Shown here: positions 16,792 to 24,166 of the stretch, in pieces
Layout of the letters: each line of letters opens with the position of its first letter
Numbering within the stretch: position 1 is the stretch's first letter
Assembly (NCBI RefSeq): GCF_027912495.1
Contig: NZ_CP115463.1
Location: 1 to 64,000 of the forward strand
Length of the DNA: 64,000 bases
Direction of reading: 5' to 3'
Origin: Caulobacter sp. NIBR1757
GTDB taxonomy: Bacteria; Pseudomonadota; Alphaproteobacteria; Caulobacterales; Caulobacteraceae
Program-made: the position numbers and the translations under genes
The notes under the pieces: generated by a model
The model's input: the letters and a program-made list of their open reading frames with translations, nothing else
What the model was told of the DNA's origin: nothing
The model's database searches: none

Positions 16792-16804
<13 letters not shown>

Positions 16805-16822
16805 GGGCGCCCCAGCCTTTTT
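16792..16822 (+). terminator. Intrinsic terminator of trpS, overlapping its stop codon
   Basis: A perfect 10-bp stem CTGGGGCGCC / GGCGCCCCAG (16792-16801 and 16806-16815) with a four-base loop TGAG, followed by CCTTTTT. The loop contains the trpS TGA stop (16802-16804), so the left arm is coding. A terminating ribosome would cover the hairpin, so termination may depend on translation of the last codons. Confidence 0.8.
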
Positions 16823-16914: not shown

Positions 16915-18927
16915 ATGGCCCATATGCTCAGCCTTTCGGCCGCCGCCAAGCGGCCGGTCGCCAATTGGCAAACCGACGCCGCCGCGCTTCGCGCCATCGC
17001 CCAGATGGCGGTGAACGTCGAACTGTTCACCATCCCGCTCTACATGACGAGCCTCTACTCCATTCAGGGCTTCCACCCGATCACCGGCGGCGGCACCGAC
17101 TTCTACCAGGGCCGGCTATGGGCCGGGGCCAAGACCAGCGCCGATCCGAAGACCACCAACGACAAGGCCTTCAACATCGTCTTCTCGGTCTTCATCCAGG
17201 AGATGCTCCACCTGCAGATGGCCGCCAACATGGCCACCGTCGTCGGCGTCAGCCCGACCTTCACCGGCGCCCCGCTGCAGGACGAAAACGGCGGCTGGCT
17301 CTGCTATGGCCCGGACAAGAGCGTCATCCCGGGCATCATCGACCTGAAGGACACCAAGGCCCACGAGGACGTGGCGGTGAACATCGGCGTGCTCGACGAG
17401 ACGGCCCTGCGCCTGTTCCTGGCCATCGAACAGCCGGAGGCCGACGCCCGCGCCAACATCAAGGAAGCCAAGCGCAAGGACTACTTCCCCAAGGTCCCGT
17501 TCGACAAATGGCAGGCCGGGGACGCCCTGCCGCTGTTCGGCACCATCGGCTGGATGTACCAGTGCTACTTCGACTACCTGAACCTCAAGTACGACGACGG
17601 CTCGACCCTGTGGTCGAAGGTGTTCAATCCCAAGGCCGTGCAGAACGACCTGTTCAACACCTCCGGCTCCGGCGGCCACCCCATGCGCGAGTTCATGGGC
17701 TTCGAGACCACCATCGCCCTGACCTACCCGGACATCGCCTTCGAGCAGATGGTCCAGATGATGGACGCCATCACCGACCAAGGCGAGGGCAACACGATCA
17801 ACCGCGGCGGCGGCCTGCTGATGAAGGCGGTCGAGCCCAAGTACCAGCCCAACGACGCCGCCCTGAAGTCCGACTATCCGAGCTACAGCGACAGCGGCAA
17901 GCTCCTCCCGTCCGCCGACGCCGAGGCCCGCTGGAGCAACGACGGCCGCGACCACTACGAGCGGTTCAACGAGCTACAGGGCATGCTGCATGACCTGGTC
18001 ACCTGGCCGCAGTGGCTGAAGCGCAACCCGACCTGGACGGCCGAGATGCTGACGGGCGAGGGCCTCGATCCCACCAATCCCTACAAGCTGCCGACGCCGG
18101 CCGATGTGGCCGGGGCCCTCAACGCCCTGGCCGCCGACAAAAAGAACAGCCAGCCTCTGCTCAGCCAGGCCGTGGTCGGCGCCATTCACGGCGTCACCTC
18201 GGTGCTCAACGGCTACTGGGCCGTGCCGGCCCCCGGCGAGACCGCGCCGCTGTTCCCCTTCCCGTCGATGAGCGGATCGGGCGACCGGATGAGCACCGCC
18301 TGGGCCATCCTCGGCGAGGCGCCGGACCTCTCCATGAGCCTGCCGCCGCCGGCCGGCGACGTTCTCTACCACTCGTGCCAGGGCATCGACTTCAACGGCG
18401 ACGGCACCAACAGCTGCGCCCAGGTCGAGGTCTTCCACAGCTGCCGGGGCTCCAACCTGTGCCGGGCGACCGGCGGCTGCGGCTTCGTCCAGCCGACCAC
18501 CGGCGGCGGCAACTGCAGCTCGGCCGTGGCCACCCGCGCCCCGGCCGCCGCCAGCTGCAGCGCCAACGGCTGCGGGTCGGGCGGCGGCGGCTCAAACGGC
18601 GGCGGGGGCGATTCGACCGTCTATTCCGCGCCGGGCGACAACAAGTGCGGCGGTTTCGGCGGCTGCGCGGTGCCGATCTCGGCCTCGCAGGTCTTCCCCA
18701 AGGCCGGGACCATGCAGCTGTTCAACTTCGTCAACGAACCGGGGGTGGGCTGGAAGTCGAAGGCCATCATCGGACCGACGTCCGAGCTGCAGTTCTCCGT
18801 CGGCGAGAAGGTGCACACGGTCGCCTGGCGGGCCTTCAGCGCGGTGATGACCGCCCGCGGCCAGACCCCGCCGGCCAATCCGCCGGCCGACGACAATATC
18901 CGCCTAGCCTTCCCGCCCTCGACCTGA
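16915..18927 (+). CDS. Ferritin-like (VioB/RebD-type) protein with bufferin-like Cys-rich tail
   Basis: 670 residues in two unlike parts. Residues about 20-430 look like the ferritin-like di-iron domain found in VioB/RebD-type iminophenylpyruvate dimer synthases; candidate iron ligands are E36 (VNVELFTIPLY) and E96/H99 (IQEMLHLQMAAN). Residues 488-584 hold ten cysteines (488, 501, 510, 516, 522, 534, 548, 553, 578, 584) in CQGIDFNGDGTNSCA, HSCRGSNLCRATGGC and NKCGGFGGC, with a Gly/Ser linker. This spacing resembles the small precursor peptides modified by DUF692 oxidases. A compact C-terminal part (about 585-670) follows. There is no signal peptide. The start is the ATG at 16915 with GGGAGGAG nine bases upstream. 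The next gene, 10 bp downstream, is a DUF692 oxidase. The role as its substrate is inference. Confidence 0.7.
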   Translation: MAHMLSLSAAAKRPVANWQTDAAALRAIAQMAVNVELFTIPLYMTSLYSIQGFHPITGGGTDFYQGRLWAGAKTSADPKTTNDKAFNIVFSVFIQEMLHLQMAANMATVVGVSPTFTGAPLQDENGGWLCYGPDKSVIPGIIDLKDTKAHEDVAVNIGVLDETALRLFLAIEQPEADARANIKEAKRKDYFPKVPFDKWQAGDALPLFGTIGWMYQCYFDYLNLKYDDGSTLWSKVFNPKAVQNDLFNTSGSGGHPMREFMGFETTIALTYPDIAFEQMVQMMDAITDQGEGNTINRGGGLLMKAVEPKYQPNDAALKSDYPSYSDSGKLLPSADAEARWSNDGRDHYERFNELQGMLHDLVTWPQWLKRNPTWTAEMLTGEGLDPTNPYKLPTPADVAGALNALAADKKNSQPLLSQAVVGAIHGVTSVLNGYWAVPAPGETAPLFPFPSMSGSGDRMSTAWAILGEAPDLSMSLPPPAGDVLYHSCQGIDFNGDGTNSCAQVEVFHSCRGSNLCRATGGCGFVQPTTGGGNCSSAVATRAPAAASCSANGCGSGGGGSNGGGGDSTVYSAPGDNKCGGFGGCAVPISASQVFPKAGTMQLFNFVNEPGVGWKSKAIIGPTSELQFSVGEKVHTVAWRAFSAVMTARGQTPPANPPADDNIRLAFPPST

Positions 18928-18937
18928 CGGGACCGCG

Positions 18938-19798
18938 ATGAGTGGTGTTGCCCCCCGCCTCGGCCTCCCCCTCCTGGGGGATGGCCTTGGCCTGCGGGAC
19001 GAGCATTTCGGCCATCTGATGCGCACCCGTCCCGACCGGTGGGGCGCCGACTGGTTCGAGATCATCAGCGAGAACTTCATCGGCCATCACGGCTGGGCGG
19101 CGCGGGTGCTGGAGCATGTCGCGGCGCACCGGCCGGTGGTCATGCATGGCGTCTCCCTGTCGATCGGATCGACCGATCCGTTGGACCGCGCCTATCTCAA
19201 GGGCCTCGCCGACCTGGCCGAGCGGGTGAAGCCGGCCTGGATTTCCGACCATCTGTGCTGGACCGGCGTCGGCGGCCGCAACAGCCACGACCTGCTGCCC
19301 ATGCCCCTGACCGAAGAGGCGCTCGCCCATGTCGCCGACCGGGTGCGGGCCGTGCAGGACATCCTGGGCCGTCCGCTGGTCATCGAGAACCCCAGCAGCT
19401 ACCTGGAATTCGCCGCCAGCCAGATGCCCGAATGGGCCTTCCTCGGCCGCCTGGCCGAGGACACCGGCTGCGGCCTGCTGCTCGACTGCAACAACGTCCA
19501 CGTCAGCGCCCACAACCACCGCTTCGATCCGGTGGCCTACATCCAGGCCCTGCCGGCCGACCACATCGTCCAGGTCCACCTGGCCGGCCCCAGCGACGGC
19601 GGCGACCATCTGATGGACACTCACGATCATCCGGTGCCGGACGCCGTCTGGCCCCTCTACGCCCTGGCCCAGCGACGCACCGGTGGCGTCTCGACCCTGC
19701 TGGAATGGGACGCCTCCATCCCGCCCTACGAGGACCTGCTGGCCGAGCTGGGCAAGGCCCGGCTGCATCGCGACCTGCGCGAGGCCGCCGTTGCCTGA
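18938..19798 (+). CDS. DUF692 multinuclear non-heme iron oxidase (MNIO, MbnB/BufB family)
   Basis: 286-residue TIM-barrel oxidase family whose known members (for example MbnB, TglH) oxidatively modify cysteine in ribosomal peptides. Conserved iron-ligand motifs are visible: ISENF (E45), VMHGVSLS (H70), SDHLCW (D104, H105), VIENPSSYL (E150, N151), LLLDCNNVHVSAHNH (D183, H188), VQVHLAG (H214), DTHDHPV (D227, H229) and LLEWD (E256). It starts 10 bp after the Cys-rich ferritin-like gene and overlaps the DUF2063 gene, the arrangement expected of an MNIO and its partner. No separate small precursor-peptide gene (DUF2282 or similar) was found beside it, which points to the fused tail of the upstream protein as a candidate substrate. 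Confidence 0.9.
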   Translation: MSGVAPRLGLPLLGDGLGLRDEHFGHLMRTRPDRWGADWFEIISENFIGHHGWAARVLEHVAAHRPVVMHGVSLSIGSTDPLDRAYLKGLADLAERVKPAWISDHLCWTGVGGRNSHDLLPMPLTEEALAHVADRVRAVQDILGRPLVIENPSSYLEFAASQMPEWAFLGRLAEDTGCGLLLDCNNVHVSAHNHRFDPVAYIQALPADHIVQVHLAGPSDGGDHLMDTHDHPVPDAVWPLYALAQRRTGGVSTLLEWDASIPPYEDLLAELGKARLHRDLREAAVA

Positions 19799-20570
19799 CC
19801 TGGCTGACCTTCAAGCCGCCCTGCAACAGGCCGTCACCGGACCCGCGCCCGAAACCTGGGGGCGGGCCGGCGCCCTGCTGGCTCCCTCGCCGATGAGCCC
19901 GGAGCGGCGCCTGTCCCTCTACGCCCACGGCTATCGCGCCCGGCTGCTGGACAGCCTGCGCCGCGAATTCCCGGCCCTTTGCGCCCTGATGGGATCAACC
20001 GTCTTCGACCTGTTCGCCGAGGGCTATATCGAGGCCTGCCCGCCCGGCACGCCGAGCCTGCACGATCTCGGGGGCCGCTTCCCCGCCTGGCTGGAACAGA
20101 CCCGGCCGGCAGACGCCGGCGAGGAGGCCCAGCTGCCCATCCAGCTGGCGCGGCTGGAACGGGCCTGGTCCGGCGCCCTGCGCGCGCCCGGCCCGGAGGG
20201 CCTCACACCCCCACCCCCGGACCTGCTGCTGCACCCGTCCGGCCGGTTGAAGCTTCCCGGGACCACGGTGCTGCTGCGGCTGGACTTCGACTTCGCGCCG
20301 CTGCTGGCGGCCGTGGCCGAGGGCAACCCGCCGCCGACGCCGCAGGCCCGCCCGACCCTGGTCGCCATCGCCCGCTCAAACTATCGGATCAGCCTCCACA
20401 CCCTGAGCCCCGGCCGTTTCGCCTGGCTTCGGGCCCTCGGCCATGACGGCGCCCCGGCGCTGGCGGCGGCCGCGACGGCGGCGGAGGGCGAGGATCCCGG
20501 CGCCCTGCTGGCCGATCTGGTCCTCTGGCTGCCGATGGCCATTCAGGCCGGCCTGGTGATCGCCGACTGA
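19791..20570 (+). CDS. DUF2063 partner protein (BufC-like)
   Basis: 259 residues. The N-terminal segment LADLQAALQQAV, then MSPERRLSLYAHGYRARLLDSLRREFPAL, is the DUF2063 signature (putative DNA-binding/partner domain) regularly encoded next to DUF692 oxidases, where the partner is thought to bring the substrate peptide to the oxidase. No ATG is available in the conserved region: the TTG at 19791 overlaps the end of the DUF692 gene by 8 bases and gives a start that matches the family, so translational coupling is likely. The C-terminal half is rich in Ala, Leu and Pro and less conserved. No cysteine cluster or membrane segment was seen. Confidence 0.82.
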   Translation: MPDLADLQAALQQAVTGPAPETWGRAGALLAPSPMSPERRLSLYAHGYRARLLDSLRREFPALCALMGSTVFDLFAEGYIEACPPGTPSLHDLGGRFPAWLEQTRPADAGEEAQLPIQLARLERAWSGALRAPGPEGLTPPPPDLLLHPSGRLKLPGTTVLLRLDFDFAPLLAAVAEGNPPPTPQARPTLVAIARSNYRISLHTLSPGRFAWLRALGHDGAPALAAAATAAEGEDPGALLADLVLWLPMAIQAGLVIAD

Positions 20571-20603
20571 GCCGAAAGGGCTCCTCGCGCGTTGCGGCCA
20601 GGC

Positions 20604-21506
20604 ATGACCCCTGATCTCGACGCCCTCATCGTCGGCGCCGGCCCCGCCGGGCTGACCGCCGCCATCTACCTTGGCCGCTTCAAGCGACGCATCGCCGTCA
20701 TCGACGCGGGGGACAGCCGCGCCGCCTGGATCCCGATCACCCACAACCATCCCGGCTGGCCGGATGGCATCAGGGGAACCGACCTGCTGGCCCGCATCCG
20801 CGCCCAGGCCGAGAAGTACGGCCCGGACATCCGCGAGGGCACGGTCGAGGGCGTGAAGCCTGTGAAGGGCGGCTTCGAGGTCACCGTCGGGGCAGAGACC
20901 CTGACCGCCGCCAACGTCCTGCTGGCCTGCGGGGTGAAGGACAACGACCCGCCGCTGCCCGGCGTCGAGGAGGCCGTGCGCCGGGCGCTGATCCGCATCT
21001 GCCCGATCTGCGACGGCTATGAGGTCTCGGGCCTCGAGGTCGGGGTGATCGGCGACGGCGATCTGGGCGCTCGCGAGGCGCTGTTCCTGCTCAACTGGAC
21101 AGACCGCGTCAGCCTGATCCACGTCGGCCCAAAGGCAGCCTTGTCAGCCGGCTCGCGCGGCAAACTCACGAAGGCCGGCGTCACCCTGATCGAGACCGCC
21201 TGCCAGAGCGTGGTGCTGGAGAACGACAGCCTGAGCGCCCTCTGCTTCGGCCCCGACCACACCGTCCGCTTCGACGCCCTCTACGCGGCGCTCGGCTGCG
21301 TCGCCCGCTCGGAGCTGGCCGTGCAGGCCGGCGCCAGGCTGGACGACCAGAACCGCCTGATCGTCGACGATCACCAGCAGACATCCGTCCCCGGCCTGTT
21401 CGCGGCCGGCGACCTGGTGCGCGGTCTCAACCAGATCAGCACCGCCGAGGGCGAGGCGGCCATCGCCGCTACCGCCATCCACAATCGGCTGCGGGGTGAG
21501 GTCTAG
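20604..21506 (+). CDS. Thioredoxin-reductase-like FAD/NAD(P) oxidoreductase
   Basis: 300 residues. The FAD motif [18 protein letters not shown] is at 9-26. A redox-active CPIC pair lies in [11 protein letters not shown] (C133, C136), the position of CATC in thioredoxin reductase. An NAD(P)-binding motif [16 protein letters not shown] and the C-terminal FAD motif [11 protein letters not shown] follow. It is slightly shorter than TrxB and lacks the usual GGGNSA-type nucleotide motif, so it may reduce something other than thioredoxin. It begins 33 bp after the DUF2063 stop and could belong to that operon, where a disulfide reductase would suit a cysteine-rich substrate; this is inference. It ends tail to tail, overlapping by 4 bp, with a P450 gene. 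Confidence 0.82.
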
Positions 21507-22765
21507 ACCCGCTCGGGAATGATCACCGGCAGGCTCTCGTAGCCCTTCACGAAGCTGGAGAAGACCCGCTTGGGCTCGCCGACCACGTCGATGCGGGGGA
21601 AGCGCTTGAGGATCTCTTCCCAGACGATGCGCAGCTGCATCTCGGCCAGGCGGTTGCCCAGGCAGCGGTGGATGCCGAAGCCGAAGGACAGGTGATGCCG
21701 GGCCCGCTCGCGGTCGATCAGGAAGCGGTCGGCGTCGGCGATCACCGTCTCGTCGCGGTTGCCCGAAACATACCACATGACCACCTTCTCCCCCTTCTTG
21801 ATCAGCTTGCCGCCGACCTCGGTGTCGGCCAGGCAGGTGCGCCGCATGTGGGCCAGCGGCGTCTGCCAGCGGATGATCTCCGAGACCATGTTGGGGATCA
21901 GGGCCGGGTTGGCGCGCAGCTTGTCGTACTCGGCCGGGTTCTGGTTCAGGGCCAGCAGGCCGCCGGTGATCGAGTTGCGGGTGGTGTCGTTGCCGCCGAC
22001 GATCAGCAGGATGATGTTGCCCAGGTATTCCATGGGCTCCATGTTTTTGGTGCTCTCGCCATGGCAGAGCATGGAGATCAGGTCCGGCCTGGGCTCGGCG
22101 TTGATCCGCTCGTTCCACAGGCGGGTGAAGTATTCGAGGCAGCCGAGCAGCTCCATCTGCCCCTCTTCCTCGGTCTCGACGACGCCCTGGCCCGGGATGG
22201 CGGTGGCGACGTCGGACCAGCGGGTCAGCTTGCGGCGGTCCTCCCAGGGGAAATCGAACAGGGTGGCCAGCATCTGGGTGGTCAGCTCGATGCTGATGCG
22301 ATCGACCCAGTCGAACTGCTCACCGATCGGCAGCTCGTCGAGCAGTTTGCCGGCCCGCTCACGGATCACCGACTCCAGCTCCATCAGCCGCGCCGGGCTG
22401 ACCGCCGGACTGACGGTCTTGCGCTGCACATCATGCTTGGGCTGATCCATGGCGATGAACATCGGCAGCATGAATTCAGGATTGAAGTCGGCCAGGGTGA
22501 TGCCGCCCAGGTGCGCATCGGAACTGAAGGCCTGGTGGTTGGTATCGACCGCGACGATGTCCTCGAACCGGGTCACCGACCAGTAGGGGCCCCACTCGCT
22601 CTCGGCCGTGTAGTGGACCGGGTCTTCCCGGCGCAGGCGCTCGAACACCGGCCAGAAGCTGTCGGCGGCGAAGCGGTCGGGCAGGCCGGGATTCAGCTCG
22701 GCCAAAGGCGTGGTTTCAGCAGCAGCCTTGTCGGCGGCGCGCTTGTCGAAGTTTCCATCGGCCAT
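21503..22765 (-). CDS. Cytochrome P450, CYP153-like
   Basis: 420-residue soluble P450. The heme-binding cysteine is C368 in [16 protein letters not shown]. The oxygen-activation helix is [13 protein letters not shown], and ExxR is in EIIRWQTP. The sequence around PLAHMRR and [14 protein letters not shown] is characteristic of the CYP153 group, which hydroxylates alkane or fatty-acid chain ends, so a terminal hydroxylase role is inferred. It is the second of two tandem, closely related copies; the ATG at 22765 lies 10 bp after the stop of the other. No ferredoxin or ferredoxin-reductase gene sits beside it, so its electron donors must be elsewhere. Confidence 0.9.
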
Positions 22766-22775
22766 GGTGGTCGTC

Positions 22776-24037
22776 CTAAAGTCGGGCAGGGATGACGACG
22801 GGAAGGGTGTCGTAGCCCTTCACGAAGCTGGAAAAGACGCGGGTCGGCTCGCCGACCACGTCGATGCGGGGAAAGCGCTGCAGCACCTCTTCCCAGACGA
22901 TGCGCAGCTGCATCTCGGCCAGGCGGTTGCCGACACAGCGATGGATGCCGAAGCCGAACGACAGGTGATGACGCGGCCGCTCGCGGTCAATGATGAAGGC
23001 GTTGGGGTTGTCGATGACCGTCTCGTCGCGGTTGCCGGAGACGTACCACATGACGACCTTGTCGCCGGCCTTGATGGTCTTGCCGCCGACCACCGTGTCC
23101 TCGACGCAGGTGCGGCGCATATGGGCCAGGGGCGTCTGCCAACGGATGATCTCCGAGACCATCGAGGGGATCAGCGCGGGATTGGCCCGCAGCTTGTCGT
23201 ACTCGGCCGGGTTCTGGTTCAGCGCCAGCAGGCCGCCGGTGATCGAGTTGCGGGTCGTGTCGTTGCCGCCGACGATCAACAGGATGAGGTTCCCGAGGTA
23301 CTCCATCGGGTCCATGTTTCTCGTGCTCTCGCCATGGGCCAGCATCGAGATCAGATCATCGCGCGGCGGCGCGTTCACCCGCTCGTTCCACAGCCGGGTG
23401 AAGTAGTCCAGGCATTCGCGCAGCTCGGCCCGCCGCGCCTCCTCGCTCTCGACGATGCCGTTGCCGGGCAGGGCGGTGGCGACATCCGACCAGCGGGTCA
23501 GCTTGCGCCGGTCCTCCCAGGGGAAATCGAACAGGGTGGCCAGCATCTGGGTGGTCAGCTCAATGCTGATCCTGTCCACCCAGTCGAACTCCTCGCCGAT
23601 CGGCAGGCTGTCGAGCAGTTTCCGGCCCGCTCGCGGATCACCGGCTCCAGCAGCATCAGGTTGGCGGGACTGACCACCGGGCTGACGGTCTTGCGCTGCA
23701 CGTCGTGCTTGGGCGGGTCCATGGCGATGAAGTTCGGCAGCACAAAGTCGGGCTTTGGATCACGGATGGTGATGCCGCCCCGGAAGGCGTCGCTCGAGAA
23801 GGCCTGGTGGTTGGTGTCGACGGCGACGATGTCGTCGAACCTGGTGATCGACCAGTAGGCCCCCCACTCGCTGCCCGGCGTATAGTGGACCGGATCTTCC
23901 TGGCGCAGGCGTTCGAACACGGGCCAGAACGTGTCGTCCCGGAAGCGGGCCGGATCGCCGGGGTTCAGCTGGTCGAGGGGCGTGGCCCAGACCTGGGCGC
24001 GCAAGGCGTCCAGCCTGTCGAAGGCGCCGTCAGCCAT
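22776..24037 (-). pseudogene. Frameshifted CYP153-like P450 (first tandem copy)
   Basis: Closely related to the downstream intact P450 along its whole length, but the reading frame breaks near 23621. The intact copy reads GTTTGCCGGCCC where this one reads GTTTCCGGCCC, so one G is missing. The N-terminal fragment (MADGAFDRLDALR... to VIRERAG) runs from ATG 24037, with a good GGGAGGA ribosome site. The C-terminal fragment, including heme motif [15 protein letters not shown], continues in another frame to the stop at 22776. Everything else looks functional (no other stops, conserved motifs), so this is either a very recent inactivation, programmed frameshifting, or a sequencing error. A GC-rich non-slippery context makes programmed frameshifting unlikely. 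Confidence 0.85.
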
Positions 24038-24104
24038 CGCATCCTCCCTTATCTTGTCATTGTTCACATAGGGCCACGGAAACGCCGGTTTGTGAAGCCG
24101 GGCC

Positions 24105-24145
24105 CAAAATGAGAGAGCCCCCGCCGTCAGGGACAGCGGGGGCTC
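24105..24145 (-). terminator. Intrinsic terminator downstream of the chemoreceptor gene
   Basis: Perfect 10-bp stem GAGCCCCCGC / GCGGGGGCTC (24115-24124 and 24136-24145). Read on the minus strand it is followed by TCTCTCATTTT. It lies about 20 bp beyond the stop of the chemoreceptor gene, and upstream of it on the plus strand there is no gene, so it serves the minus strand. Confidence 0.65.
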
Positions 24146-24166
24146 CAAGCAGTTCTGGAGGCTGGG

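Follow-up and report, generated by a model that had tools for sequence, protein, structure and literature searches.

The window analysed here is a stretch of 64,000 nucleotides from Caulobacter sp. NIBR1757 (contig NZ_CP115463.1, positions 1 to 64,000 of the forward strand), in which open reading frames (ORFs) define a cassette of three genes (Table 1). The first encodes a 670-residue ferritin-like protein, the second a DUF692 oxidase (MNIO), and the third a DUF2063 protein; 10 bp separate the first gene from the second, which overlaps the third by 8 bp. The original prediction, made from the sequence letters, had described a ferritin-like protein with ten cysteines at residues 488-584, a DUF692 gene 10 bp further on, and then an overlapping DUF2063 gene, and both the ORFs and the family matches given below bear this out. 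The cassette is real, conserved, and undescribed as far as the open-licence PubMed Central (PMC) literature shows, and it is a variant of the MNIO/bufferin kind.

The body of the large protein is ferritin-like. A search with a hidden Markov model (HMM), as the original prediction had proposed, matches PF12902 at residues 30-294 (E 2.1e-19; 70.7 bits against a Pfam cut-off of 22.3), and this domain was found at E<=0.001 in all 64 aligned proteins, comprising that of the window and 63 relatives. NCBIfam holds no family for the 670-residue protein up to E 1. PDB matches at E<=0.001 are two chains of 3hl1 only (chain A at E 8e-9; E 5e-10 in a profile search), which is the 317-residue ferritin-like protein CC_0557 of Caulobacter vibrioides. 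All 18 aligned rows, including ten that lack the Cys segment described below, keep residues E36, E96, H99, E172 and H347, and 17 of the 18 keep E291. Judged by the ferritin pattern, these six residues are candidate di-metal ligands, with H347 lying just outside the Pfam match. Two cysteines of this body, C130 (80/81) and C217 (76/81), are kept in the window's family, and are found neither in ten members that lack the segment nor in a divergent homolog from genome G610.

Past residue 480, the protein carries ten cysteines, at positions 488, 501, 510, 516, 522, 534, 548, 553, 578 and 584. When the window's protein is aligned with 80 relatives, C488, C510, C516, C522, C578 and C584 are invariant in 81 of 81 sequences, while C501 is kept in 80, C534 in 77 and C553 in 70; Cys conservation is far beyond chance. 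The mean column majority is 0.88 in the second Cys block, 0.866 in the last nine residues and 0.714 in the first block, compared with 0.645 in the ferritin domain, 0.594 in the helical middle, 0.541 in the C-terminal domain and 0.535 in the linker, such that both Cys blocks exceed the ferritin domain in conservation. The AlphaFold2 model of the whole protein (predicted local distance difference test, pLDDT, 83.9; predicted template modelling score, pTM, 0.88) is mostly confident to approximately residue 480, falls to pLDDT blocks of 28-62 over residues 481-590, and returns to 79-87 from residue 591 on. Modelled alone, the C-terminal part is predicted to form four strands and one helix (pLDDT 83.8, pTM 0.66), with no match in the PDB (best E 1.4). 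Because confidently modelled parts flank a region of low confidence, the Cys segment is, by these models, a flexible insert between two conserved parts. The original prediction of a C-terminal Cys tail is thus corrected: the cysteines are internal, and a conserved domain (residues 586-670) lies beyond them. The C-terminal RLAFPPST (residues 662-670, window 18898-18924) is nearly invariant in five phyla, which is unusual for a free C-terminus, and each residue of the final PPST is present in 79-80 of the 81 aligned proteins; from its sequence conservation this end is a candidate docking signal. The segment is enlarged in some relatives, with 13-19 Cys past the ferritin body in loci L029-L031, L033, L035, L037, L044, L064 (Sphingomonas) and L078, and 7-12 in most others.

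Table 1. Features of the cassette and its upstream border, in window coordinates.
Feature	Position	Strand	Remarks
Ferritin-like protein with internal Cys segment, 670 aa	16915..18927	+	proposed MNIO substrate
PF12902 ferritin-like domain, residues 30-294	17002..17796	+	Pfam; 3hl1 fold match
Cys block 1, residues 488-526, CQG..NSCA..FHSCRGSNLC..GGCGFVQ	18376..18492	+	proposed modification sites; Buf1-like and Buf2-like patterns
Variable Gly-rich linker, residues 527-569, with C534, C548 and C553	18493..18621	+	low model confidence
Cys block 2, residues 570-592, YSAPGDNKCGGFGGCAVPISASQ	18622..18690	+	most conserved of seven regions compared
C-terminal domain, residues 586-670, ending RLAFPPST	18670..18924	+	candidate recognition element, putative role
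MNIO (DUF692, PF05114), 286 aa	18938..19798	+	Pfam and NCBIfam
DUF2063 (PF09836) partner, 259 aa, TTG start	19791..20570	+	PME-type 1 by Pfam signature and length
Terminator-like hairpin at the trpS end, followed by CCTTTTT	16792..16815	+	10-pair stem; between trpS and the cassette

The two downstream proteins belong to families known from peptide modification. The MNIO matches PF05114 (E 7.8e-103, 343.7 bits) and the NCBIfam model NF050167, MNIO_BufB, at 345.3 bits against a cut-off of 310, and is therefore of the BufB type; the same model is matched at E<=0.001 by all 25 MNIOs compared, namely the window's and 24 of the 78 that are linked to ferritin-like relatives. Its partner matches PF09836 (E 1.1e-18; 67.7 bits against a cut-off of 27.2), a signature present in 25 of 25 partners (the window's and 24 of 77 linked), and with 259 residues fits the PME-type 1 range of about 250-260. 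For the C-terminal RRE-type domain of PME-type 1 partners the signals are weaker: the HvfC model aligns to residues 35-256 of the DUF2063 protein at 30.3 bits against a cut-off of 142, and NGO1945_C was found in 2 of the 25 partners. Matches of the DUF2063 protein to TALE proteins were rejected as summed repeat noise in which no single stretch passes.

To place the cassette among its relatives, named genomes were scanned with a seven-row alignment, which returned 155 relatives, and the best 80 of the 155 were taken; all counts on 80 loci rest on these. The scan patterns lay in the ferritin domain, the ranking used the full query, and MNIO linkage was not a selection criterion. The 80 relatives derive from Pseudomonadota, Actinomycetota, Bacteroidota, Acidobacteriota and Ignavibacteriota. 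The three-gene order, for which the original prediction had suggested a survey, recurs throughout: an MNIO lies downstream on the same strand in 78 of the 80, and a DUF2063 gene in 77, the misses being contig ends (L013 and L091 for both genes, L079 for DUF2063). The estimated gap to the MNIO has a median of 16 bp and a maximum of 291 bp, leaving out L062, whose negative value is an artefact of a secondary match. Within the taxonomic family the protein is present in 5 of 149 genomes with the window's included; at the level of the class 5 of 385 genomes match, at full length in the window's, G183 and G441 and weakly in G271 and G179. Across the phylum, 8 of 398 genomes were hit by a profile, at full length only in the window's and G022. 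A copy with 34.6% identity is carried by a Pseudoalteromonas megaplasmid, with the MNIO and DUF2063 genes behind it. The divergent homolog in G610 (L173 128-3297, reverse strand) is a 744-residue ferritin-like frame with 21 Cys, upstream of an MNIO and of a DUF2063 relative (E 9.2e-23). The frame has a Cys block, NDCAGQGYC...NDCKHQGGC...SMGSCATPI, that is a counterpart of the window's with a different arrangement, and the MNIO behind it belongs to the clade of the other ferritin-linked MNIOs.

A survey anchored on PF12902 itself matched 15 of 349 genomes of the phylum, of which three partial hits (G586, G690 and G568) were left out to give 12 near-full proteins. An MNIO adjoins all three proteins that possess the Cys segment (G000, G022 and G610) and none of the nine that lack it, within the approximately 1.5 kb flanks fetched; likewise, an annotated segment-less Azospirillum protein has no MNIO annotated within 3-4 kb. 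The window's protein thus shares its ferritin-like body and ligand columns with PF12902 proteins such as 3hl1, but the segment-less proteins differ in length, the ten aligned spanning 316-436 residues as read against 670 here, and the nine surveyed in the missing MNIO neighbour. PF12902 genes also adjoin fungal lodA/lodB genes, a different context treated in part of PMC4417212.

The linked MNIOs were placed by a quick tree of 117 rows and a careful tree of 60 rows, the latter keeping 27 of 74 ferritin-linked rows, with 10 others, including L120 and L132, dropped because of long branches or unusual make-up. The careful tree unites the ferritin-linked MNIOs, including the divergent G610, in one clade with support 99/93 (81/90 without G610), which nests inside a 100/100 group together with Buf2-linked MNIOs. 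Most Buf1-linked MNIOs stand apart, and without L120 and L132 the Buf1 rows form one group. Copies from Pseudonocardiaceae (L026, L028 and L043), which are actinomycetes, nest among the alphaproteobacterial MNIOs, a placement that suggests horizontal transfer of the cassette.

The window's genome encodes one MNIO and has no DUF2282 (Buf1) match and no significant Buf2 match, the best reaching E 0.07. That sub-threshold Buf2-like match (L195, G000:C1:3686463-3686555) contains an internal stop. Within the 80 loci no frame beats E 1.6 with a Buf1 or Buf2 HMM, and, as the original prediction had noted for the window, a separate small precursor gene by the cluster is found in none of them; a loose scan returned 49 small Cys-rich frames, judged by eye to be shadow frames, none of which reaches E 1 with either HMM. 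Among the 28 largest clusters of neighbouring genes no further family is kept across lineages, and a profile of the segment matches ferritin-like proteins only, all already known, in 2 of 270 genomes of the class and 1 of 78 genomes of G610's class. Given the single MNIO, the lack of another precursor, the association of MNIOs with the segment, their clade, and the position of the ferritin-like gene upstream of the MNIO, where a 2025 landscape paper also sought substrates (PMC12452194), the 670-residue protein is probably the substrate of its own MNIO/DUF2063 pair. The earlier proposal that the large protein itself is modified thereby gains support, since it is the only candidate found for this pair. 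In an unlikely but not negligible alternative, the ferritin-like protein would serve the MNIO as an iron donor or work beside it as a second tailoring enzyme, its segment would function unmodified in metal binding or docking, and the substrate would be a peptide encoded elsewhere. PF12902 proteins exist without the Cys segment or an MNIO, so the domain has some independent function; the cofactor of MNIOs contains several irons (PMC13419390), and the window's protein retains the full ligand pattern. Yet this alternative sits poorly with the absence of bufferin-HMM matches from all 80 loci, with the lack of a Buf1 or significant Buf2 match in the window's genome, with the upstream position of the gene, and with Cys blocks that are both more conserved than the ferritin domain, although a precursor of some other type may lie elsewhere in the genome.

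Among the closest known counterparts of the cassette are the bufferins Buf1 (DUF2282) and Buf2 (BufA2), which are encoded with BufB and BufC. Cassette and bufferins share the gene order substrate-MNIO-DUF2063 and the common motifs C.G..N.CA..H.C.G and C.G.N.C...GGC-type, and the MNIO clade is nearest to the Buf2 MNIOs. Unlike bufferins, the window's protein has 670 residues, a ferritin-like body, an internal Cys segment, and no apparent Sec signal peptide; characterised bufferins bear signal peptides. Among 17,200 frames, the Buf1-like pattern (C.G, N.CA, H.C.G) matches 76 ferritin-type and 14 Buf1 frames, and the Buf2-like pattern 92 ferritin-type and 13 Buf2-type frames, plus a long frame (L149) that holds a Buf2 precursor; neither matches any further frame, and shuffles give 0.15 each. 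As the raw counts of 76 and 92 contain multiple copies of the same gene, we also counted distinct sequences: the Buf1-like pattern is found in 66 of 82 ferritin-type segments and 9 Buf1 stretches, the latter against 53 distinct Buf1-labelled frames, and the Buf2-like pattern in 81 of 82 segments and 12 Buf2-type stretches, against 27 loosely labelled Buf2-type frames. Locus L150 (G535) encodes a 157-residue precursor with 13 Cys and duplicated Buf2-like units, upstream of an MNIO.

Seven to nine near-invariant cysteines in an inserted segment, with an MNIO and a DUF2063 gene behind wherever the contig extends far enough, point to a self-contained protein-maturation cassette in which the MNIO and its partner modify the large protein, a reading to which we assign a probability of roughly 0.62. 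The DUF2063 protein would dock on the large protein, perhaps via the conserved C-terminal domain or its PPST end, and, by analogy, would present it to the MNIO, which would use O2 to oxidise several of the segment cysteines, most likely to 5-thiooxazoles, each with the loss of 4 H (-4 Da). Once modified, the segment would remain attached and form an arm close to the di-iron site that would bind soft metals of the copper type; our weakly held guess is that the mature product handles metal or does redox chemistry inside the cell and is not exported as a metallophore. The parts of this proposal differ in strength: analogy gives thiooxazole chemistry on the segment cysteines about an even chance; that MNIOs here equip a folded di-iron protein inside the cell with thiooxazole or similar ligands, creating a soft-metal site beside a ferritin-like centre, is a tentative proposal; and a copper or iron role for the product is doubtful.

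Cleavage is the point on which a true RiPP (ribosomally synthesised and post-translationally modified peptide) pathway would differ, with the large precursor cut after modification to release the Cys segment as a copper-binding peptide. A linker of low confidence between two confidently modelled parts would make proteolysis easy, but the 28 largest neighbour clusters include no protease or transporter/exporter family that stays with the cassette from lineage to lineage, the protein has no apparent signal peptide, and the parts flanking the segment are both conserved, ferritin ligands included, making this pathway quite improbable. Least likely of all, the segment would simply be an insert of the usual zinc- or iron-sulphur-binding type, sharing an operon with an MNIO by chance: Cys-rich inserts are common and an apo metal-binding loop could show the same low model confidence, but MNIO linkage in 78 of 80 loci from five phyla, the complete association in the PF12902 survey and the common bufferin-type motifs all speak against coincidence.

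Several observations weigh against modification of the large protein by its neighbours. The curated bufferin models PF10048 and NF050166 do not match it, with control scores on NF050166 (cut-off 60) of 80.1 bits for Buf2 and 30.8 bits for Buf1, and the segment alone, for which the original prediction had proposed a comparison with DUF2282/bufferin models, matches no NCBIfam family up to E 10. Against the protein family of the window, home-made Buf1 and Buf2 HMMs do no better than E 3.5 and 2.7, and hhalign gives 16% (Buf1) and 18% (Buf2) against 87% for a Buf1/Buf2 positive control. Some marginal contacts occur: the Buf2 HMM touches the G610 protein (E 0.0029 for a partial frame, 0.0096 for the full frame), and the segment HMM matches both the G610 protein (1.8e-4 and 8.2e-4) and one Buf2 protein (E 0.0066; L106 and L122, from one genome). 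Bufferin membership by profile was therefore rejected, and because these comparisons are weak to marginal we claim a likeness of motif only. Both patterns, moreover, were written after both sequence sets had been seen, so the motif stands above compositional chance but does not imply common ancestry. A Sec signal peptide is likewise not apparent by hydropathy, with 2 of 81 proteins above the limit (L016, where the stretch lies before the likely start, and L053, whose start is unsettled) compared with 23 of 24 Buf1 controls. The original description of the tail as bufferin-like thus survives at the level of its Buf1-like and Buf2-like patterns, but not in curated models, HMMs, hhalign or the signal peptide. 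According to the relevant part of PMC12452194, PME-type 1 partners go with signal-peptide precursors, unlike the MNIOs of precursors without one; with PF09836 partners and no apparent signal peptide, the cassette departs from this rule and is unlike the bufferins. In the quick tree, 2 of 23 Buf1-linked MNIOs (L120 of G257 and L132 of G223) lie on the Buf2/ferritin side, and clade and substrate type are therefore not perfectly matched; a substrate switch within the clade is possible. Since the ranking used the whole protein, it favours segment-bearing proteins among the best 80 of 155, with the other 75 outside the sample. Finally, the 28 largest neighbour clusters hold no evidence of a copper role, the cysteines could bind metal unmodified, and chemistry and function are argued from genomics and analogy.

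The precedents for such chemistry are peptides. In the parts of PMC13097082 and PMC12452194 that concern them, the MNIO relatives BufB and FonB/HvfB convert Cys to 5-thiooxazole with the loss of 4 H, giving products that bind copper, and these copper-binding thiooxazole MNIOs work with a DUF2063-type partner. MNIO substrates with known chemistry are peptides in Table 1 of the landscape paper, which nevertheless argues from sequence that MNIOs may modify proteins too (PMC12452194). The fusions it describes (Buf1/cytochrome c/FGE-sulfatase, MerC/Buf1, MerC/Buf2 and Buf_EGKCG/EF-hand) resemble the window's protein in joining MNIO target domains to larger metal-related proteins, but are recognised by Buf domain profiles, and none named is ferritin-like; the word 'ferritin' occurs 0 times in the main text, and its supplement may list such proteins (PMC12452194). 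Captophorins, or EGKCG peptides (fontiphorin and oxazolin), likewise combine a Cys-directed MNIO with a DUF2063-type (PME1) partner, and by this analogy 5-thiooxazole chemistry is plausible here as well; as described in the sections of PMC13097082 devoted to them, they differ in being small peptides, whereas the window's protein lacks EGKCG repeats. No ferritin-like MNIO substrate is named in titles or opening abstracts of the open-licence PMC papers listed by full-text searches or in the papers cited here, in keeping with the original statement that no example of this fusion was known. Copper induces two DUF692 operons of Caulobacter crescentus (PMC8224329).

Around the cassette, terminator-like hairpins number 3 in the scanned 5 kb against 1.8 from shuffles, weak evidence alone for the one listed in Table 1, and a sigma-70-like promoter was not found in the stretch between trpS and the cassette. 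Right after the DUF2063 gene lies a gene for a FAD/NAD-linked, thioredoxin-reductase-like protein (PF07992) with a CPIC motif (20592-21506, + strand), which starts 21 bp (TTG) or 33 bp (ATG) past the DUF2063 stop and is possibly co-transcribed here. It was rejected as a fourth member of the cassette, because none of the 80 related loci matches it at E<=1e-5. Beyond it are two adjacent, similar cytochrome P450 genes (21503-24148, - strand), the first of which was scanned with Pfam; the second is split into two frames that overlap (22776-23579 and 23555-24148), which looks like a frameshift or a sequencing error. Searches with Padloc and for phages gave no match.

These data suggest, from gene order and sequence, that the action of MNIO/DUF2063 enzymes can extend from small secreted peptides to a large protein. 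One speculation in PMC12452194 is that partners of the DUF2063 type keep signal peptides masked until modification is complete. The cassette offers a clean and widespread case both for protein modification by an MNIO and for this masking idea; if our reading is true, a DUF2063-type partner works without a signal peptide. The process would then count as maturation of a protein, not as synthesis of a peptide natural product, and would occur in at least five phyla, carried out by a single MNIO clade next to the Buf2 maturases. Protein biochemistry would gain a new post-translational metal site, and with it a class of metalloproteins that combine a genetically encoded, enzyme-made soft-metal site with a ferritin-like centre.

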